A stretch of DNA of 64,000 bases, from positions 1-64,000 of the forward strand of contig NZ_FOLI01000007.1 in assembly GCF_900112405.1 (NCBI RefSeq), in the 5' to 3' direction. Source of the DNA: Fructobacillus durionis (GTDB lineage: Bacteria; Bacillota; Bacilli; Lactobacillales; Lactobacillaceae). A program made the position numbers and the translations under genes. The notes beneath the pieces were generated by a model, which was not told the DNA's origin, made no database searches, and was given only the letters and a program-made list of their open reading frames with translations. Shown here piece by piece: positions 85 to 60,664 of this stretch (position 1 is its first letter; every line of letters begins with the position of its first letter).

Positions 85-90
85 ATCAAA

Positions 91-131
91 TAGCGTGATA
101 TAAATATATCACGCTACCATGTGTTTGACAA
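91..131 (-). promoter_or_regulatory. tRNA-Asn promoter overlapped by a perfect palindrome
   Basis: Reading the minus strand, the -35 is TTGTCA (131-126), followed by 17 bp and the -10 TATATT (108-103). Bases 91-116 form an inverted repeat with 12-bp perfect arms (TAGCGTGATATA) around a 2-bp centre, covering the -10 and the probable start site. No T-run follows, so it does not look like a terminator. An operator is plausible; the protein that would bind is unknown. Confidence 0.65.
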
Positions 132-219: not shown

Positions 220-1044
220 TTAAGCAAAGGGGTTCCAGAATCGACCATCGTCGACTGAAACAAGGACAATGGCTAGGATTAGCAAAGCAATTCCTAACAA
301 TAGTCCAACCCAGTCAGCCAAATGCCAGGATTGGGCATAGTACCAGGTACGCTTCTTCTTTTTTCCAAAGCGACGAAGTGCCATCGCTTCTGAAATTGTC
401 TCGACTTTTTCAAGGGTTGAAAAAGCCAAAGCTAGGAGCAAACGTGTTGAGGCAACTAACTTCTTTCCAAGCGATGCTTTCTTACCTAAGGCAAAGCCAC
501 GGGCTTCTTGCACCTTACGAGTTGTTTGAAACTCACTTTGGATGGTTGGCAAGTAGCGCAGTGTGAGTGAAAAGGCGTAGGCGACTTTGTAAGACACCCC
601 CACCTTGTTCAAACCGGCCGCCAACTGGGAGGGCTGGGTCGTCAACAAGAAGGCCAGTGAAAGCGGAACCGAGAAACAGTACTTTAAGAGCACGAGTAAC
701 TCGTAAAAGATCTGTTGGGAAGTTAAGGCGTAGTAGCCTGAACCAAGCAAAACTGTCTTACTATGGTAGAGTTCTACTCCGTACTGTGGTGCAAAGACGT
801 AAATCAATAGCAGGTTCAGCACGGCAAAGAGAACCGTTAAATAAACCAGGATGCGAATGGACTGCCAGGAAATCTTGGATAGGTAGAGAACCAATCCCGC
901 AAAGACCGTTAGTCCAACTAGGAAACGCATGTCAAAGGAAAGAATACCGGCAACTGTCAATAGAATGAAGACAATCAACTTACTCGTTCCGTTCATCTTA
1001 TGAATGAAAGAATCACGTTCCTGGTAACCAAGAAAATCATTCAT
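220..1044 (-). CDS. ecfT: ECF transporter transmembrane protein EcfT
   Basis: 274 aa membrane scaffold of an energy-coupling-factor (ECF) importer. It joins the substrate-binding S component to the two ATPases in the cytoplasmic membrane. Hydrophobic segments lie near residues 22-56, 64-85, 115-135 and 240-262. The coupling region carries an Ala-Arg-Gly motif at 181-183 and a second, degenerate one (ALR) near 222-224; in EcfT proteins these motifs contact the ATPases. It is the last gene of the operon and overlaps the ATPase gene by 8 bp, so translation is probably coupled. Because a dedicated ATPase and S component are encoded alongside, this is a group I (self-contained) ECF system. Confident family call; substrate not shown by this subunit. 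Confidence 0.9.
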   Translation of the reverse strand: MNDFLGYQERDSFIHKMNGTSKLIVFILLTVAGILSFDMRFLVGLTVFAGLVLYLSKISWQSIRILVYLTVLFAVLNLLLIYVFAPQYGVELYHSKTVLLGSGYYALTSQQIFYELLVLLKYCFSVPLSLAFLLTTQPSQLAAGLNKVGVSYKVAYAFSLTLRYLPTIQSEFQTTRKVQEARGFALGKKASLGKKLVASTRLLLALAFSTLEKVETISEAMALRRFGKKKKRTWYYAQSWHLADWVGLLLGIALLILAIVLVSVDDGRFWNPFA

Positions 1045-2716
1045 GGCTGGCCCCCTTTCCCTTTAGGCCTAGTCGTTCTAACAAGACCTGATCAGATGGT
1101 TGAATCAAAGACGTTTCAGACAACAAATCAGTACTTTCGAACAGCGTCTTTGGACTAGTTTGACTAGTGATTCGACCATTTACTAATGAAACTACTCGAT
1201 CCGACCACTTTTCAATCAAGGCCATGTCGTGGGTCACTGTAACAAGAGCTAATCCCTTATCACGGAGGGATTGCAAGTAAGTTAAGAGTCCCTTAGCCGA
1301 GATATCATCCTGTCCAGCAGTTGGTTCATCAAGAATCAAAACGGCCGGTTCTAGAATAGCGACAGCTAGGACGGACAAACGACGCTTCTGTCCAAAGGAC
1401 AGGGCTTGGCTTGGCCAGTTACGATATGGATAAAGGTTGGCTTCCTTTAGGGCAACCAAGACTTTTTCATTAATGGTCTCTTCGGACACGTTGCGCAGGC
1501 GTAAGCCAGCGGCAACTTCCTCAAAGACTGACAAACCAATCAACATTTCATTGGGGTTTTGCGACACATAACCCACGTACTGAGCGTGTTCTGCCAAAGG
1601 CAAGCCGTTTAATTCAACGGCCTTATCATCTTTGCCATTCGCCTTCACAAGACCTGCCTGTATAGGCAAGAAGCCTGCCAACAAACGAGCTAAGGTCGAT
1701 TTACCAGAACCGTTTTCACCAATTAAGGCTAACCATTCCTTCTTCTGGACTGAGAAGTCAATGTCTTTCAAAACCTGACGCTCTCCGTACTGGTAGTCAA
1801 TCCCAGTCGCTTCCAAAGCCGTGGAGCCAAAGCTTTCTTCCGCCTTCACGGTTGGGTGGACGGCCAAAAAATCAGACAACTTATCCGCTAGTTTCGGCCC
1901 GTCAACTTTCACCAAGTCCGAGATGTCCGTTAAATCGTCCAAAGCGTAGCCCGACTTTTCAATCAAGGAGACATAAGCTGGCTGAGCCAACTGCCAGTCA
2001 TGAAAGTCCGGCTGGACTAATAGTTCGTCAGCGCCACCATCAAAGACTAGTTCCCCCTCTTCGAGGACCAAAACTTGGTCGACGCCCTTGCGCAAGACTT
2101 CATCAATCCGGTGCTCAACCATGATGACCGTGATGCCTTCTTGATGAAGTTGGTCCATCGTTTCAAGCAAGGATTGTCCCGCCTTTGGATCCAAACTAGC
2201 CAGTGGTTCGTCCAAAACCAAAATGGGGCTATCCCCGACCAACACGCCAGCTAAGGCGACCCGTTGCTTTTGTCCACCGGACAAAACGTTTGGCCCCAAT
2301 GGCAAAAGCTCGGTTAAGCCAAAACGTTTGGCAACATCCGTCACTGCCTGGCGCAACTTGGACAAAGGTTCCCCCTCGTTTTCCAAAACAAAGGCAATGT
2401 CTTCTGCTACCGTTAAGCCAACGAACTGACGGTCCGTATCCTGCAAAATCGTTCCAACTAAGAGTGAACGGTCAAAGGGGTCTTTCCCAGATTGGTCAAC
2501 ATCGTTAATCAAAACACGTCCTGATAGGTCCCCGTTTTCTTCGGTCACTAAGGCGTTAATCAAGGAAATCAAGGTTGACTTACCGGATCCAGAAGGCCCC
2601 AAAACTAAGGTTTTGCTACCCGTCTTAATGGTAAAGTTAATATTTTTCAACGTTGGCTCTGCCTGCGTTTCATAGCGGAAAGTCACGTTGTCGAATTGTA
2701 AAGCGGAATCAGCCAT
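1037..2716 (-). CDS. ECF transporter ATPase, two ABC domains fused
   Basis: 559 aa protein with two complete ABC nucleotide-binding domains in one chain. The first has Walker A GPSGSGKST near 40-48, signature LSGGQ near 145-149 and Walker B ILVLDEP near 165-171. The second has Walker A GENGSGKST near 333-341, an altered signature LSFGQ near 439-443 and Walker B ILDEP near 461-465. It would drive vitamin- or metabolite-type uptake with EcfT and the S component. Fused double ATPases are typical of the YkoD-like branch that accompanies UPF0397 S components, and that is the arrangement here: 14 bp after the S-component gene and overlapping ecfT by 8 bp. The second signature (F for the middle G) fits asymmetric ATP sites, which is an inference. 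Confidence 0.92.
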   Translation of the reverse strand: MADSALQFDNVTFRYETQAEPTLKNINFTIKTGSKTLVLGPSGSGKSTLISLINALVTEENGDLSGRVLINDVDQSGKDPFDRSLLVGTILQDTDRQFVGLTVAEDIAFVLENEGEPLSKLRQAVTDVAKRFGLTELLPLGPNVLSGGQKQRVALAGVLVGDSPILVLDEPLASLDPKAGQSLLETMDQLHQEGITVIMVEHRIDEVLRKGVDQVLVLEEGELVFDGGADELLVQPDFHDWQLAQPAYVSLIEKSGYALDDLTDISDLVKVDGPKLADKLSDFLAVHPTVKAEESFGSTALEATGIDYQYGERQVLKDIDFSVQKKEWLALIGENGSGKSTLARLLAGFLPIQAGLVKANGKDDKAVELNGLPLAEHAQYVGYVSQNPNEMLIGLSVFEEVAAGLRLRNVSEETINEKVLVALKEANLYPYRNWPSQALSFGQKRRLSVLAVAILEPAVLILDEPTAGQDDISAKGLLTYLQSLRDKGLALVTVTHDMALIEKWSDRVVSLVNGRITSQTSPKTLFESTDLLSETSLIQPSDQVLLERLGLKGKGASHE

Positions 2717-2730
2717 TCGCTGTCCTTTCT

Positions 2731-3288
2731 TTAATCTTCTTTGCGCAGCAAGGTTTGCTGCCCCTTGTTCTTCAAATAAAGTGATAAGAGTGTCGTTCCG
2801 ATGATACCCGTTGAAATCACGTTCACAATAACCGAAAGGCCACCCTGTAGATAAACCTTGTTGGCAGGCTCAGCGTAAATCACGATGTCCAAAGTTGGCG
2901 CGATCAACAACCAAGCAATCAAGTTGGCAATCAACTGGCTAATGTTAAACCAGGCGATTTTCCAAAAGTTCAGCGAACCCTTTAGTAAACGGGCACGCTT
3001 CACCAATAGGGCAAAAATGAAAGCATAGCAGCCGTCAGCAATCACCCATGACCACCAGACGGATCCGTAGGAAATGGCATCATTCAAGCTGTGTCCTAAG
3101 ATGGCAACGAAGAAGCCAACCATTGGTGAAAAAAGAATCGAAATCAATGATAACCAAGACTGGGCCACGTTGACTTGCGTGTTGGGAATTCCCGTTGGAA
3201 TCGCCACAAACTTAAACAGAATCAAAAAGACGGCAGCACCAATTCCAATGGCTACGACATCCTTTGTTGATAAGCCCTTCTTTTTCAT
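2731..3288 (-). CDS. ECF S component, UPF0397 family
   Basis: 185 aa integral membrane protein with about five to six hydrophobic segments and short loops. It resembles the UPF0397 family through the N-terminal VVAIGIGAAVFLIL stretch, the IPTGIPNT loop, the GHSLNDAISYGSVWWSW region and the LIAPTLDIVIYAEPANKV segment. UPF0397 proteins are substrate-capturing (S) subunits of ECF importers; automated names such as riboflavin transporter are not well supported. The gene starts on the base after the stop codon of the SAM-hydrolase gene and precedes the ATPase and EcfT genes, so all four are one transcript under a methionine T-box. Context therefore points to a methionine- or SAM-related substrate (inference). 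Confidence 0.87.
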   Translation of the reverse strand: MKKKGLSTKDVVAIGIGAAVFLILFKFVAIPTGIPNTQVNVAQSWLSLISILFSPMVGFFVAILGHSLNDAISYGSVWWSWVIADGCYAFIFALLVKRARLLKGSLNFWKIAWFNISQLIANLIAWLLIAPTLDIVIYAEPANKVYLQGGLSVIVNVISTGIIGTTLLSLYLKNKGQQTLLRKED

Positions 3289-4134
3289 TTAGTTATCCTT
3301 TTCAATTTCAATCGTCCAGTTTTGACCGGCTGACAAGTGGTTTTCAGCAGCCATTGAACCCATTCGGATGGCAATTCCAACCGTGTAAACCGAGTTCATG
3401 TAAATCAATGTTTCGCCGTTCTTCACATCGGCAAAAGTCTTGTAGTAAGGCAACTTTGCCTGGTAAACACGCTTGCCTTCGTAGAAGACAGAAACGTTGA
3501 AGACATCCCCATAACGGGCACCAAAGTCTTCTTCCCAACGTGATTCTTCAATGTTGGTCCACAATGAACCGAAGTTAACATCGGTAATATCAACGTTACC
3601 AACAATCTTGTTACCTTCGATACGGGCTGGGTTCAAGGCCAAGCGTTCAATATCTGCCACTGGCAATTCCTTACCAATTTCTTCAAAAGTAATTTGTCCA
3701 CCGGCCAAACGAGCACCGTTGTATACATAGATGTCACGGCCGTGGAACGTAGCGGACTTTTCAGAGCCTGGCAAACGGTCGATGCTTTCATCGATGACGC
3801 GCACGGCTTCGATTCCGTATAACTTGTCCAAGTGAGTCAACGTTCCGTTATCAGGTGTTACGACATAGTGACCAGTTTTCAACTTGGCAACCAATGACAA
3901 ACGCTTTGAGCCAACGCCAGGATCAACAACTGAAACAAAGACCGTACCAGCTGGCCAGTACTTCGCTGTTTGTGAAAGTCGGAAGGAACCTTCAAAAATG
4001 TTAAATGGTGTAATCCCGTGCGTTAAATCGGCCACGGTCACTTCAGGGTCAACCTGACGTGCCACACCGTACATCGTTGAAACGGCGCCGTCATTCAATC
4101 CAAAATCTGTTTGCAATACAAGTGCTGCTTTCAT
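3289..4134 (-). CDS. SAM hydrolase (SAM hydroxide adenosyltransferase, DUF62)
   Basis: 281 aa. The DUF62 family, related to SAM-dependent chlorinase/fluorinase, splits S-adenosylmethionine with water to adenosine and methionine. Family signatures include the N-terminal LVLQTDFGLNDGAVSTMYGV, DLTHGI, VVDPGVGS (catalytic Asp region), TPDNGTLT and TFHGRDIY (conserved His/Arg region). The chosen start has GGAGG 7 bases upstream; an in-frame start further upstream has no such site. It is the first gene of the ECF operon, directly behind the T-box terminator. Low methionyl-tRNA supply would switch on both a transporter and an enzyme that can release methionine, which suggests salvage of SAM or a similar adenosyl compound. 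That role is inferred. Confidence 0.88.
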   Translation of the reverse strand: MKAALVLQTDFGLNDGAVSTMYGVARQVDPEVTVADLTHGITPFNIFEGSFRLSQTAKYWPAGTVFVSVVDPGVGSKRLSLVAKLKTGHYVVTPDNGTLTHLDKLYGIEAVRVIDESIDRLPGSEKSATFHGRDIYVYNGARLAGGQITFEEIGKELPVADIERLALNPARIEGNKIVGNVDITDVNFGSLWTNIEESRWEEDFGARYGDVFNVSVFYEGKRVYQAKLPYYKTFADVKNGETLIYMNSVYTVGIAIRMGSMAAENHLSAGQNWTIEIEKDN

Positions 4135-4174
4135 GTTCTTCCTCCGGCTCAATGTGAGCATTTTTTGTTTTAGT

Positions 4175-4458
4175 AAGCAAATAAAAACCCGGACAGGTCA
4201 AAAGACCTGCCCGGGACGAAATGTTCGCGTTACCACCTGGTGTTTGGTTATTTTTCACAAAATAACCCTTCATACGTTCGAGACTCTTTTGGTCTGAAAC
4301 GATTCGCTGTAACGGGCGATTCCCGATTCAAGTTCACCAATAGCTCACCCAAATAATTAGCTCCCAGACCATATTCACTGTGTTGACTGTCCGGTTTTCA
4401 CCAAACACCGGCTCGCTAAGCAGTCGCGACAGTTACTTATCTGTTCTTCGCTGTGATG
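4175..4458 (-). promoter_or_regulatory. T-box leader, methionine specifier
   Basis: Minus-strand leader with the main T-box parts in order. Stem I has the distal AGCGAG bulge, a GGTGAAAACC-type terminal loop and paired CCGGT/ACCGG and GACTG/CAGTC arms. The specifier context is GTGAAT-ATG (AUG at 4372-4370). The antiterminator core is AGGTGGTAACGCG (about 4239-4227), whose UGGU bulge can pair with a tRNA 3' ACCA end, as in tRNA-Met with discriminator A. The leader ends in the hairpin at 4183-4215. Uncharged tRNA-Met would stabilise the antiterminator and allow expression of the downstream operon. Confidence 0.93.
4183..4215 (-). terminator. T-box-controlled terminator
   Basis: Minus-strand GC-rich stem (CCCGGGCAGGTC pairing with GACCTGTCCGGG) with a short T loop and a TTTTTATTT tail. 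It mutually excludes the T-box antiterminator just upstream. Confidence 0.93.
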
Positions 4459-4464
4459 TTTATT

Positions 4465-4493
4465 ATATTACGACATTCGGCAATCAATGTCAA
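4465..4493 (-). promoter_or_regulatory. Promoter of the T-box/ECF operon
   Basis: Perfect -35 TTGACA (4493-4488), 17-bp spacer and -10 TAATAT (4470-4465) on the minus strand, placing the start near 4458. A strong constitutive-looking promoter fits regulation by the T-box rather than by initiation. Confidence 0.9.
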
Positions 4494-4565: not shown

Positions 4566-5495
4566 TTATTCGTTACCAACAACCTCAGAAAACTTTTCTG
4601 AAATCGATTTTGCGGAAGCTGCTAGCTTCTCCTTTTCATCAGACGATAAAGTCCAACTCGATTCGGCCACAATTCCTTGACGGCCAACGATGGCTGGCGT
4701 CGACAAGTAAGTACCAAAGGCCTCTTGGTAGTGTGAGACCGGTAGCTCTTCATGGGCGTCGGAAACAATGACTTTGGCCAAGCGCACCGCCGCGGCTGCG
4801 ATACCGTATGAAGTATACCCCTTTGCATCGAAGACATCGTTTCCGCGGACAATGGAGGCCTTTTCAATTTCGGCCAAATCAACCCCTGCTGCCTCAGCCA
4901 TTTGCAGAGCGGGTTGGCCCATCACGGAACCCGTCGACCATGCCGTAAACTGCGTGTTTCCGTGCTCACCGAGGTTATACCCGGCTACCGACTTAGGAGA
5001 CACAGCAAAAGCTTGACCAGCTGCCGCCCGCATCCGTGCCGTGTCCAATAGCGTTCCCGTACCAATCACTCGTTCAACTGGATAACCGGTTTCTTTTTGA
5101 TAAAAAGCAGAAATGGCATCACAAGGATTGGTGATGACCACTAGTACGCCGGCAAAACTAGTCTTCTTCAATTGAGTCGCAACCTTTTGAACTTGTTCAA
5201 CGTTATAGGGCAATTCAGTAAAGCGGTCCTTGCTAACACTGTTGTATTGCAAGGCAATGTGTCCCAGTGCTGAAATCACAAGGTCGGCATCATCCAAAGC
5301 GGCATAATCATTCACGGTGATTTTATAGGAGCCATTTTGGTTAGCTAAAGCATCTTCCAAATCCAAAGCTTCCGCACGGACTTTCTCAACCTTCGTGTCA
5401 ATTAACACGTATTCATCAAAAGTGCCTTCTTGCACCAGGGCGTGGGCTATTGCTGATCCCACATGTCCCATTCCGATAATTCCGACTTTTCGCAT
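4566..5495 (-). CDS. L-2-hydroxyacid dehydrogenase (L-HicDH type), copy 2
   Basis: 309 aa NAD-dependent enzyme of the LDH/MDH fold. It would reduce branched 2-oxo acids such as 2-ketoisocaproate to L-2-hydroxy acids, regenerating NAD+ during amino-acid catabolism. Seen: Rossmann motif GMGHVGSA at the N terminus, VVITNPCDA, and the active-site GYNLGEHGNTQF loop. The chosen start has AAGGA 7 bases upstream. It lies 10 bp after its paralogue and shares long identical blocks with it. It differs in the region that shapes substrate choice: here ALGHIALQYNS, in the partner ALGNIQLQHNN. The first has His where the known L-HicDH pattern is Gly-Asn, so its substrate may differ. Alternative: an L-lactate or malate dehydrogenase, less likely. 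Confidence 0.85.
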   Translation of the reverse strand: MRKVGIIGMGHVGSAIAHALVQEGTFDEYVLIDTKVEKVRAEALDLEDALANQNGSYKITVNDYAALDDADLVISALGHIALQYNSVSKDRFTELPYNVEQVQKVATQLKKTSFAGVLVVITNPCDAISAFYQKETGYPVERVIGTGTLLDTARMRAAAGQAFAVSPKSVAGYNLGEHGNTQFTAWSTGSVMGQPALQMAEAAGVDLAEIEKASIVRGNDVFDAKGYTSYGIAAAAVRLAKVIVSDAHEELPVSHYQEAFGTYLSTPAIVGRQGIVAESSWTLSSDEKEKLAASAKSISEKFSEVVGNE

Positions 5496-5505
5496 GTTTT
5501 TATCC

Positions 5506-6438
5506 TTATTGTTGGCCTTGCACAACTTCAGCAAACTTATCTGAAATCGATTTGGCAGAAGCCGCTAGCTTCTCTTTTTCATCCTCTGTTAATGTCAAAG
5601 TCGATTCGGCCACGATTCCTTGGCGGCCAACAATGGCTGGCGTTGACAAGTAAGTGCCAAATGCTTCTTGGTAGTGAGAAACAGGCAATTCTTCGTGGGC
5701 ATCCGACACAATCGCCTTAGCCAAACGAATGGCTGCAGAAGCAATACCATAAGAAGTAAAGCCTTTTCCGGCAAAGACCGTATAGCCACCGACAACGGAA
5801 TCTTTTTCAATTTCCGCCAAATCCACGTCCTTGGCTGCGGCAGCATCTTTAGCTGATTGACCCATGACTGAAACCGTTGACCAGGCCGTAAATTGAGTGT
5901 TTCCGTGTTCGCCAAGGTTGTAGCCAGCAACAGACTTAGGCGACACATCGAAAGCCGCCCCGGTTGCACGGCGCATCCGAGCCGTATCCAAAAGTGTCCC
6001 CGTTGCAATCACTCGTTCGACTGGATACCCCGTTTCCTTTTGATAAAGGGCCGCAATGGCATCACAAGGGTTGGTAATGACAACCAAGACACCTGAAAAA
6101 TCGGTCTTCTTCAATTGCCCCGCCACTTCTCGTACTTGTTCGACGTTGTATGGCAGTTCAATAAAACGGTCCTTAGATGGGTTGTTATGCTGTAATTGAA
6201 TATTTCCCAGTGCTGAAATCACAACGTCGGCATCATCTAAGGCAGCGTAGTCGTTCATCACGATTTTATAGGATTCATTTTGGTTAGCCAAAGCGTCTTC
6301 CAAGTCCAAGGCTTCTGCCCGAACTTTTTCGACCTTTTTATCAATCAAAACGAACTCATCAAAAGTTCCTTCTTGAACCAAAGCGTGTGCTACCGCTGAT
6401 CCAACGTGTCCCATTCCGATAATTCCAACTTTTCGCAT
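5506..6438 (-). CDS. L-2-hydroxyisocaproate dehydrogenase, copy 1
   Basis: 310 aa member of the LDH/MDH superfamily, closest in pattern to L-2-hydroxyisocaproate dehydrogenase of lactic acid bacteria. The match includes the nucleotide-binding GMGHVGSA, the VVISALGNIQLQ substrate-loop segment, GTGTLLDTAR-like (here ATGTLLDTARM), GYNLGEHGNTQF with the catalytic His, and a C-terminal PAIVGRQGIVAE segment. It would use NADH to reduce branched-chain 2-oxo acids made by transamination. It is the first of two tandem paralogues with a 10-bp gap, driven by a clear promoter at 6465-6493. The conserved loop suggests this copy keeps the ancestral specificity (inference). Confidence 0.88.
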   Translation of the reverse strand: MRKVGIIGMGHVGSAVAHALVQEGTFDEFVLIDKKVEKVRAEALDLEDALANQNESYKIVMNDYAALDDADVVISALGNIQLQHNNPSKDRFIELPYNVEQVREVAGQLKKTDFSGVLVVITNPCDAIAALYQKETGYPVERVIATGTLLDTARMRRATGAAFDVSPKSVAGYNLGEHGNTQFTAWSTVSVMGQSAKDAAAAKDVDLAEIEKDSVVGGYTVFAGKGFTSYGIASAAIRLAKAIVSDAHEELPVSHYQEAFGTYLSTPAIVGRQGIVAESTLTLTEDEKEKLAASAKSISDKFAEVVQGQQ

Positions 6439-7625: not shown

Positions 7626-8390
7626 TCACAACTTTACACCTAGCGACTCGATCAATTGCCTCATTTCCGATTTCTGCAAAACGTGTGTCGTATTTTCTAT
7701 TTCGATTAATCCTGATACCCCAGTCGCTAAAAAGAAAAAAACAGTCACAGCTAGTAGCCATTTCCCCTTCTTCGAGAGCGGAAGACCGGATCTTCGATTT
7801 GTACGCCACTCGATGACAAGGTAAAGCAACGCATCATATAAACAAGCGGCAAGTATGAACGAAATTTTAAACGCATCAGAAGAAACCGTTACGCCAAAAC
7901 CAAGAAAAGAAAGTTCGAATGCGAAAAGCAGCCACTTTCCCTTTCTCGAGAGTGGTATCCCCATCTTTCGATTGGCGCGTGATTCAACAATTAACCAAAT
8001 CGCAGTAACAATGCAGCTAAGCATGAAGAGTTCGGAAAGCTCAGATGAATCAGCATCGGATACGATGCTGTACATCCGAGTTGCAACAATGAATACAATT
8101 AGCCACTTTCCTTTTTTTGAGAGCGGAACGCCCATCTTTCGATTGGCACGCCACTCAACAATTAACCAAATGATAGCTACGATAAAAGTAAGCGAAACCA
8201 CTTCATGAATTTTGGATGAACCAGAATTATTTTCTGCAATCATGACAAGCACAGAAAGAACCATGGTAACCAGTAACCACTTCCCCCTTTTCGAAAGTGG
8301 AACACCCGCCTTGAAATTTAAAATTCGCTCGATTAAAAACCAAATGCTAGCTACTAAAAACGCAAATCCTGCTAACTCATTAAAATACAT
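7626..8390 (-). CDS. Membrane protein built of four tandem repeats
   Basis: 254 aa protein of no family that I recognise. It consists of four copies of a unit about 57-58 residues long. Each has a hydrophobic helix ending in [LIV]-E-x-R, a basic linker, and the motif G-[VIL]-P-L-S-[KR]-[RK]-G-K-W-L, followed by another hydrophobic helix. The motif prolines are at 31, 89, 146 and 204. Between units are short acidic or Ser-rich loops (ENNSGSSK, SDADSSEL). The likely topology is about eight membrane segments with all four basic motifs on the cytosolic side. The repeats are also visible in DNA, with related 30-bp stretches near 7757, 7931, 8101 and 8274. It is monocistronic, between a flavin reductase remnant and tRNA-Ser. 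Confidence 0.8.
   Translation of the reverse strand: MYFNELAGFAFLVASIWFLIERILNFKAGVPLSKRGKWLLVTMVLSVLVMIAENNSGSSKIHEVVSLTFIVAIIWLIVEWRANRKMGVPLSKKGKWLIVFIVATRMYSIVSDADSSELSELFMLSCIVTAIWLIVESRANRKMGIPLSRKGKWLLFAFELSFLGFGVTVSSDAFKISFILAACLYDALLYLVIEWRTNRRSGLPLSKKGKWLLAVTVFFFLATGVSGLIEIENTTHVLQKSEMRQLIESLGVKL
7757..8312 (-). repeat. Four tandem coding repeats, period about 174 bp
   Basis: Internal repeats of the membrane-protein gene. The best conserved 30-bp segment of each begins near 7757, 7931, 8101 and 8274 and encodes G-x-P-L-S-K-x-G-K-W-L. The copies have diverged at synonymous and non-synonymous sites, so the expansion is not recent. Confidence 0.8.
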
Positions 8391-46898: not shown

Positions 46899-47131
46899 CA
46901 AACAAAAAACCTACTCTTGTATCAAAACAAAAGTAGGCGTCATCACATTTTTTAAGCATGATAGCAAAGCGCACCGTTTAAAAAACGACAGTCCATGAAA
47001 TCTTTTTCCATGTCCCAAGCTCTGCACTCCCCCGAGTGGAAAACTTTCGGCAACCGCACCTTTTGTACCGGGTCATCGTCTTGGGTAGACTAGCCGGCAG
47101 GACTGATTTTGGTCGCAACCTCTTTGTTTGT
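46899..47131 (-). promoter_or_regulatory. Lysine riboswitch (L-box) with terminator
   Basis: The minus strand carries L-box conserved blocks in order: AGAGGTTGCGACC, AGTCT, GACGATGACCC, GGTTGCCGAAAG, GAGTGCAGAGCTTGGGA and CATGGACTGTCG. A terminator follows (CCTACTTTTGT/ACAAGAGTAGG then TTTTTTG, 46903-46940). When lysine is plentiful the aptamer should favour termination and shut off lysP. Start site about 47131 from the promoter at 47138-47166. Confidence 0.9.
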
Positions 47132-47137
47132 ATTTTT

Positions 47138-60266: not shown

Positions 60267-60299
60267 AAAGAAAAAGCCCGGACACATGTCCGAGCTTTT
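60267..60299 (-). terminator. Terminator of the cold-shock gene
   Basis: AAGCTCGGACATGTGTCCGGGCTT stem with TTTTTC tail on the minus strand. Confidence 0.92.
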
Positions 60300-60316
60300 C
60301 AAACTTAATTAAAGAA

Positions 60317-60517
60317 TTAAGCCTTGTTAATGTTAACAGCTTGCAATCCGCGGTCTGAGTTTTCAACTTCAAACGTAACGTCTTGTCCGTCTTCCAAAGT
60401 CTTGAATCCGTCGCCTTGGATAGCTGAGAAGTGTGCAAAGACATCTTCACCGTTTTCGCGAGTGATGAAGCCGTAGCCCTTTTCGCTGTTAAACCACTTT
60501 ACTGTACCTTTTTCCAT
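60317..60517 (-). CDS. Cold-shock protein, CspA family
   Basis: 66 aa single-stranded nucleic acid-binding OB fold: [30 protein letters not shown] with RNP1 (KGYGFI) and RNP2 (VFAHF). Acts as an RNA chaperone. A promoter and a leader of about 110 nt lie upstream, as usual for temperature-controlled csp mRNAs. Confidence 0.97.
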
Positions 60518-60635
60518 GATTGTTTCTCCTTTGGGTCATCCCATCTGTGTCATGTAAATAAATAAGATGTTTTTGGTATGACGCCTTTCGAAAAAAACAA
60601 ATCAAAATCAAAATTCAAACTTAATTTACACGTTA

Positions 60636-60664
60636 ACTATAACATAGCCAACAAGAGTTTACAA
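60636..60664 (-). promoter_or_regulatory. Cold-shock gene promoter
   Basis: TTGTAA (60664-60659), 17 bp, TATAGT (60641-60636) on the minus strand; start about 60629, giving a leader of about 110 nt. Confidence 0.78.

Follow-up and report, generated by a model that had tools for sequence, protein, structure and literature searches.

The operon and its genes

Four tightly packed genes on the minus strand of a 64,000-nucleotide stretch of Fructobacillus durionis DNA (contig NZ_FOLI01000007.1; the whole stretch is called the window here) form an operon that runs from about 4493 down to 220, in which a DUF62 gene and the genes of an energy-coupling factor (ECF) importer stand behind a methionine T-box. 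This methionine-switched DUF62-ECF operon is real and is conserved across relatives. The closest named relatives are from Fructobacillus, with DUF62 proteins 92-99% identical in four records.

The DUF62 gene (3289-4134) comes first and encodes both domains of the family, SAM_HAT_N (PF01887, E 4.8e-48) and SAM_HAT_C (PF20257, E 4e-16); its longest frame begins at 4161, and a GGAGG ribosome binding site found by eye fits the shorter reading. The gene for the S component (UPF0397, PF07155; 2731-3288) follows with a gap of 0 nucleotides and scores 146 bits against a cut-off of 26.7 for ECF-ribofla_trS. After a further 14 nucleotides comes a fused EcfA-EcfA' ATPase gene (1037-2716) with two ABC_tran stretches and matches above cut-off to both TIGR04520 and TIGR04521. 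It overlaps by 8 nucleotides the gene for the EcfT transmembrane component (220-1044), which belongs to the CbiQ family (E 9.4e-23) and scores too low for the cobalt CbiQ equivalog. An earlier note, made from the sequence alone, had named a SAM hydrolase, a UPF0397 S component, a fused ATPase and EcfT with minimal or no gaps, and family matches and coordinates confirm that set. The importer is well supported as a dedicated ECF system by the families of its S, ATPase and EcfT proteins together with the predicted S-component fold. The span given in the note, 1037-4493, was wrong: it omits EcfT, though the note had named that gene, and the operon reaches 220.

DUF62 enzymes split S-adenosylmethionine (SAM) into methionine and adenosine. 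In the window protein, motif and alignment place the Asp-Arg-His triad at D71, R78 and H131, and the nearest solved relative is PH0463. The window protein scores far under the threshold of NF053629, which is the (R)-SAM hydrolase equivalog of NCBIfam (138.7 against 470). The triad is described as specific to the hydrolases in the accessible part of PMC10491745. Both domains and the catalytic triad thus back the SAM hydrolase named in the earlier note, and the protein is well supported as a predicted SAM hydroxide adenosyltransferase, converting SAM to methionine and adenosine.

The T-box leader and its specifier

T-box leaders read out uncharged tRNA and switch between a terminator and an antiterminator. 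The leader of this operon (4209-4457, minus strand) reaches 94.2 bits with the Rfam T-box model RF00230, whose cut-off is 93 (E 2.4e-19), and an AGUA box, the specifier loop GUGAAUAUGGUC and a UGGU bulge (GGUGGUAACGCG) are visible directly in its letters. The bulge fits a discriminator A. The intrinsic terminator of the switch (4188-4215, minus strand), found by folding and a stem search, has a 12-pair stem followed by a U tract, and this piece folds at z -5.1, with none of 200 shuffles equally good. The fold of stem I as a single sequence is unremarkable (z -0.55, 60 of 200 shuffles equally good), so its support rests on the covariance model and on relatives. A promoter-like site, TTGACA-17-TAATAT, lies at 4465-4493 on the same strand as a consensus match only; such sites are near chance as a class, with 7 in the data against a shuffle mean of 5.3.

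The specifier loop of the window, GAAUAUGG, can be read in two ways, since UAU (Tyr) also fits the single sequence. Alignment with three Fructobacillus and two Convivina leaders showed that AUG was constant in all six and that the base before it varied, being A instead of U in the five relatives, in which AUG and the following bases were unchanged. UAU is ruled out because the base before AUG is not conserved while AUG is invariant. The AUG specifier, UGGU bulge and terminator claimed in the earlier note therefore stand, the first of them settled by the relatives and the T-box as a whole by a covariance score over cut-off.

Distribution of DUF62 and the importer

The pairing was surveyed in 395 Lactobacillales genomes, with a comparison draw of 398 genomes from the phylum. 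DUF62 was present in 141 of the 395 genomes and in 40 of the 81 genera; in the phylum draw it was found in 23 of the 398, counting the window's own genome and one other from the Lactobacillales. PF07155 matches were found in 375 of the 395 genomes, the strongest being mostly of the DUF62-linked kind, and the best 135 among the PF07155 matches listed are termed strong S. An S gene was located directly downstream of DUF62, on the same strand and within 1.5 kb, at no fewer than 113 of the 144 DUF62 hits in the Lactobacillales set, a lower bound because G098 and G258 also have an adjacent S gene beyond the matches listed. The S start was most often 400-430 bases past the DUF62 N-domain match.

By genome, 113 had both strong S and DUF62, 22 had strong S only, 28 had DUF62 but no strong S (in some, DUF62 adjoins an S gene that is weaker or unlisted), and 232 had neither. 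One of the 22, G301, contains a piece of DUF62 cut by the contig end, which leaves 21 genomes that have S but lack any DUF62 match. In G391 the operon is split (loci L179 and L154), with DUF62, the ATPase (A) and EcfT (T) genes on one contig and the S gene alone on another.

Methionine control across relatives

T-boxes were found on 19 of 60 sampled DUF62-S operons (17 by pattern, G144 and G260 by Rfam), representing 15 of the 33 sampled genera, and in all seven named relatives (L019-L025). They were not confined to the pair. A Met T-box preceded S in 6 of the 21 genomes without DUF62, all six with the gene order S-A-T, and a T-box core or Rfam match preceded DUF62 in 17 of 18 genomes of a Listeria-like family that lacks strong S (in G190 the core only), with AUG readable in 14 of these (13 by pattern, G204 by eye). 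Over all groups, 44 leaders matched the core pattern, of which seven far upstream were discarded by eye as chance; of the 37 kept, 35 matched the Met specifier pattern, G366 was read as Met by eye, and G190 was not resolved. The Rfam-found leaders G144, G204 and G260 also read AUG by eye. When applied to the 18 T-boxes of the window genome, the automatic specifier pattern caught that of the operon, missed one near a MetQ-type gene, and produced one false, ileS-like call. Met T-boxes on S-A-T without DUF62 and on DUF62 without strong S indicate that both halves are methionine-regulated independently. The comparisons proposed in the earlier note leave methionine control well supported and link the importer to methionine with or without DUF62; UPF0397 adjoins DUF62 at most DUF62 hits, and the AUG specifier is repeated across genera, ahead of the importer too where DUF62 is absent.

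Upstream of DUF62 in the streptococcus-like group, at a distance of 71-101 bases, lies a palindrome that resembles the MET-box consensus; 22 of 26 related sequences have it with at most two mismatches. Best hits within the same limit turned up in 26% of block shuffles, and 20 of 75 other genomes also had one. In the DUF62-less genomes G137, G145 and G152, such sites appeared only at three mismatches. This is weak, suggestive evidence that the palindrome, whose position is conserved, may be a MET-box.

A broken DUF62 remnant with an internal stop (L187, genome G266) is still located behind a Met T-box.

The S component

The S component is predicted to have six helices, and its AlphaFold2 model has a mean predicted local distance difference test score (pLDDT) of 91.6. 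Comparison with solved S components by VIA-align gave Z 17.8 for 4hzu_S, presumably HmpT, 17.0 for ThiT and 16.2 for TmRibU, while the best Foldseek match was TmRibU. The protein has the predicted fold of an S component and a dedicated A and T module, as is expected of an ECF S component. The predicted fold picks no substrate, because 4hzu_S, ThiT, TmRibU and FolT lie within a few Z units. In 88 aligned sequences the invariant sites included N36, T37, D70, W81, P131, D134 and Q148, and H66, W78, W79, W126, E140, K144 and N156 were nearly invariant.

The family names would make this protein a riboflavin importer, as PF07155 and NF010182 (212.3 against a cut-off of 99) both carry riboflavin in their titles and are matched above cut-off, and TmRibU is the top Foldseek match; a model name is not a binding test. 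We consider a riboflavin importer very improbable. S is under methionine control in many genera, 4hzu_S and ThiT are as close as TmRibU by VIA-align, and among 99 scanned loci none had a riboswitch for flavin mononucleotide above the Rfam cut-off in front of its first gene, the only one found lying elsewhere, past the operon in L126.

A second S type and exported-looking DUF62 proteins

A second S type (S2), 26-27% identical to the first, was found in S2-A-T-DUF62(-DUF62) operons of three genomes (L197, L198, L199), two of which have two DUF62 genes. Both types keep N36, T37, D70, W78, W81, Q148 and N156, of which two other PF07155 proteins of the window genome keep few. Three further genomes, which belong to another family (L223-L225, L230-L232), have an A-T-DUF62 array followed by a second DUF62, in some cases after an intervening gene; the position of the S gene there lies beyond the stretch examined.

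A DUF62 tree was built from Lactobacillales sequences thinned for near-copies and from phylum loci. Apart from the locus of the window and G003, these loci, 25 in number, had to pass a filter on TDFG-, DPGVG- and HGRD-type motifs, which removed L215, L217, L218 and L220; L213 failed it and was added by hand, and the near-copies L225, L230, L231 and L232 were excluded. For Lactobacillales rows, importer-linked was the default label, given to every row that was neither Listeria-like nor S2-linked. Eight sequences that appear to have signal peptides, called by hydrophobicity and by eye with no trained predictor (L026, L027, L207, L208, L209, L211, L212 and L213), form a grade between distant outgroup DUF62s and a 60-row clade (SH-aLRT, the Shimodaira-Hasegawa-like approximate likelihood ratio test, 97) that contains the importer-linked, S2-linked and Listeria-like sequences. 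One of the eight, L026, is from a Bacteroidales metagenome-assembled genome, and metH and metF follow it downstream (L026, 964-6973). The triad was intact in 49 of 49 default-labelled, 3 of 3 Listeria-like and 4 of 5 S2-linked sequences, counts that are fair for the Lactobacillales rows only, owing to the motif filter.

The adjacency of DUF62 and importer, the exported-looking relatives and the S2 pairing suggest that this DUF62 subfamily encounters SAM extracellularly or by way of an importer. We tentatively propose, as a generalization somewhat more apt to fail than to hold, that the S components of the UPF0397 family import SAM and that the DUF62 subfamily scavenges extracellular SAM, either exported or fed by the ECF system, when methionine starvation switches it on. 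A different use for the enzyme would be to lower the SAM level during methionine shortage, and so regulate methylation or SAM-sensing RNAs, with the transporter as an unrelated source of methionine. In the Listeria-like family a Met T-box precedes a cytosolic DUF62 in genomes that lack strong S, which speaks for such a role; the role leaves the adjacency to the importer and the exported-looking relatives unexplained, and we regard it as improbable.

A possible methionine salvage route

Our preferred reading, to which we assign a probability of just under one half (about 0.48), is that the operon is a methionine-starvation salvage system importing a methionine-yielding compound, likely SAM, which is then split by DUF62. 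Pairing of uncharged tRNA-Met with both the AUG specifier and the UGGU bulge would let the antiterminator form and the operon be transcribed. The S component, with the fused ATPase and EcfT, would then import either SAM, whether fresh or already epimerised, or a closely related S-adenosyl sulfonium, and the cytosolic DUF62 enzyme would release methionine and adenosine through attack by water at C5'. SAM is our best single guess for the cargo, and we infer that the product of hydrolysis serves to refill methionine. If true, this would be, to our knowledge, the first ECF route for SAM. The methionine switch on both genes, recurring across genera, makes a concrete and cheap test for both.

The host genome also speaks for this reading. 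It comprises 1.33 Mb in 17 contigs and is 93% complete. Two of its 18 T-box matches read Met by eye, the operon's own and another immediately ahead of a MetQ-type gene, and it contains metK and three MetQ-type matches; two methionine synthase families had no match in this 93% complete draft. Those three matches would make an importer of plain methionine superfluous, and since metK and MetQ are present and methionine synthase matches absent, splitting the cell's own SAM would give no net methionine. A characterised DUF62 prefers (R,S)-SAM and loses most of its activity in salt, according to the accessible part of PMC12120602, and the former property would fit racemised SAM picked up outside the cell.

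Several observations weigh against the salvage reading. The authors of PMC12120602, in the part of the paper available, doubt that hydrolysis is the physiological role of their DUF62, and its epimer preference and loss of activity in salt count on this side too. The other 41 of the 60 sampled operons had no T-box by pattern or Rfam cut-off, and no riboswitch above the Rfam cut-off ahead of the first gene. Sequence searches with the S component, single or by profile, found no solved relative, and the signal-peptide calls were made by hand. S is kept without any DUF62 match in 21 genomes, in 19 of them as S-A-T and in G145 and G152 as S alone, and DUF62 occurs without strong S in the 18 Listeria-like genomes. 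An S tree was built from 83 of the 111 distinct sequences, including 18 from genomes that lack DUF62. On it the DUF62-less proteins are scattered, requiring 13 changes, at least 8 of them forced by the starred branches. G150 has no DUF62 and G390 does, yet their S proteins are neighbours on this tree, and a Met T-box is present in each genome. Finally, where a match at E <1e-100 was taken as presence of MetE, this enzyme was found in 93 of the 141 genomes with DUF62 and 84 of the 254 without it, strong S was commoner with MetE in all 395 genomes (82 of 135 strong-S genomes had MetE, against 95 of the 260 others), and among the 135 strong-S genomes MetE was present in 71 of the 113 that have DUF62 and in 11 of the 22 that lack it (p 0.34).

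The idea that DUF62 follows the loss of MetE was accordingly rejected, as DUF62 does not track MetE among the strong-S genomes, and because strong S and DUF62 are commoner in MetE genomes the pair cannot be explained simply as a replacement for methionine synthesis that was lost. Likewise, the scatter of DUF62-less S-A-T genomes over the S tree indicates that the importer does not need DUF62, and the 19 genomes with S-A-T alone imply that it must be useful by itself. SAM imported without DUF62 can act as a methyl donor, sparing methionine, and an importer of methionine or of some other precursor would fit equally well. By eye, the DUF62-less G137 shares an upstream neighbour gene with the DUF62-bearing streptococcus-like G067, G121 and G248, as do G287 with G347 and G026 with G339, and these shared borders read as loss of DUF62 in place.

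Such independence of the two halves is also what would be seen if the ECF system imported methionine or a non-SAM precursor while DUF62 separately acted on endogenous SAM, drawing methionine back out of that pool or removing (R,S)-SAM, the two being co-regulated only. Each half found behind a Met T-box without the other, the 21 DUF62-less genomes that keep S, the naming of a 'Methionine precursor' ECF family in the available text of PMC3654945, and the (R,S)-SAM preference reported in that of PMC12120602 all speak for this arrangement, which we regard as a serious contender with well under an even chance. Against it stands the direct adjacency of S and DUF62, repeated with the second S type; the window genome already has its MetQ-type genes, one behind a T-box reading AUG by eye, and hydrolysing home-made SAM costs ATP.

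Other features of the window

A hairpin 3' of the last gene (89-118, minus strand), a consensus match only, is a possible end of the operon. Upstream of the operon are two adjacent, near-alike lactate/malate-type dehydrogenase paralogs (4566-5495 and 5506-6438, minus strand). Also on the minus strand are a gene for a 254-residue protein (7626-8390) with about four copies, counted by eye, of an RxNRxxGxPLSKKGKW-like motif, a lysine riboswitch (46959-47132, 89.5 bits) and, in this lactic acid bacterium, a match to the cspA thermoregulator family (60269-60653, 89.9 bits against a cut-off of 78).

Comparison with known systems

The window enzyme shares both domains with the DUF62 hydrolases PH0463 and StDUF62 and with the fluorinase and chlorinase, and its triad is that of the hydrolases; it differs from all of these in its location in a methionine-switched operon with an importer. 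The window S component shares its fold, six helices and ECF module with RibU, ThiT, FolT and 4hzu_S, at an identity of only about 10-20%. A Met-P family of ECF importers was reportedly predicted by Rodionov in 2009. Like the window system, the Met-P family (MtsU; MtsTUV in TCDB) is an ECF importer placed in methionine metabolism, and its description in the accessible part of PMC3654945, by which it is compared here, mentions neither DUF62 nor SAM nor a substrate test. The same text lists 'Methionine precursor' and 'Methylthioadenosine' ECF families, so methionine-linked ECF importers have already been proposed in print.

Met T-box operons of lactic acid bacteria have been described (Wels 2008, PMC2494555; L. 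paracasei, PMC6004538) in which, as in the window, an AUG T-box precedes transporter genes, and in the accessible parts of these studies T-box specificity is used, as here, to assign transporter substrates. Those operons contain other ABC transporters and biosynthesis genes, whereas that of the window contains DUF62 and an ECF importer. The available part of PMC2494555 lists lmo2587 as 'Met related cytosolic hypothetical', and this gene may be the Listeria DUF62. A literature search, mostly outside subscription journals, found no paper on UPF0397 and, among the papers listed, none that connects DUF62 to an ECF system or a T-box, fluorinase-type enzymes to an ECF system, or SAM uptake to an ECF system or to lactic acid bacteria. 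The T-box, DUF62 and ECF parts are each already known; DUF62 together with an ECF importer under a Met T-box is the new combination.

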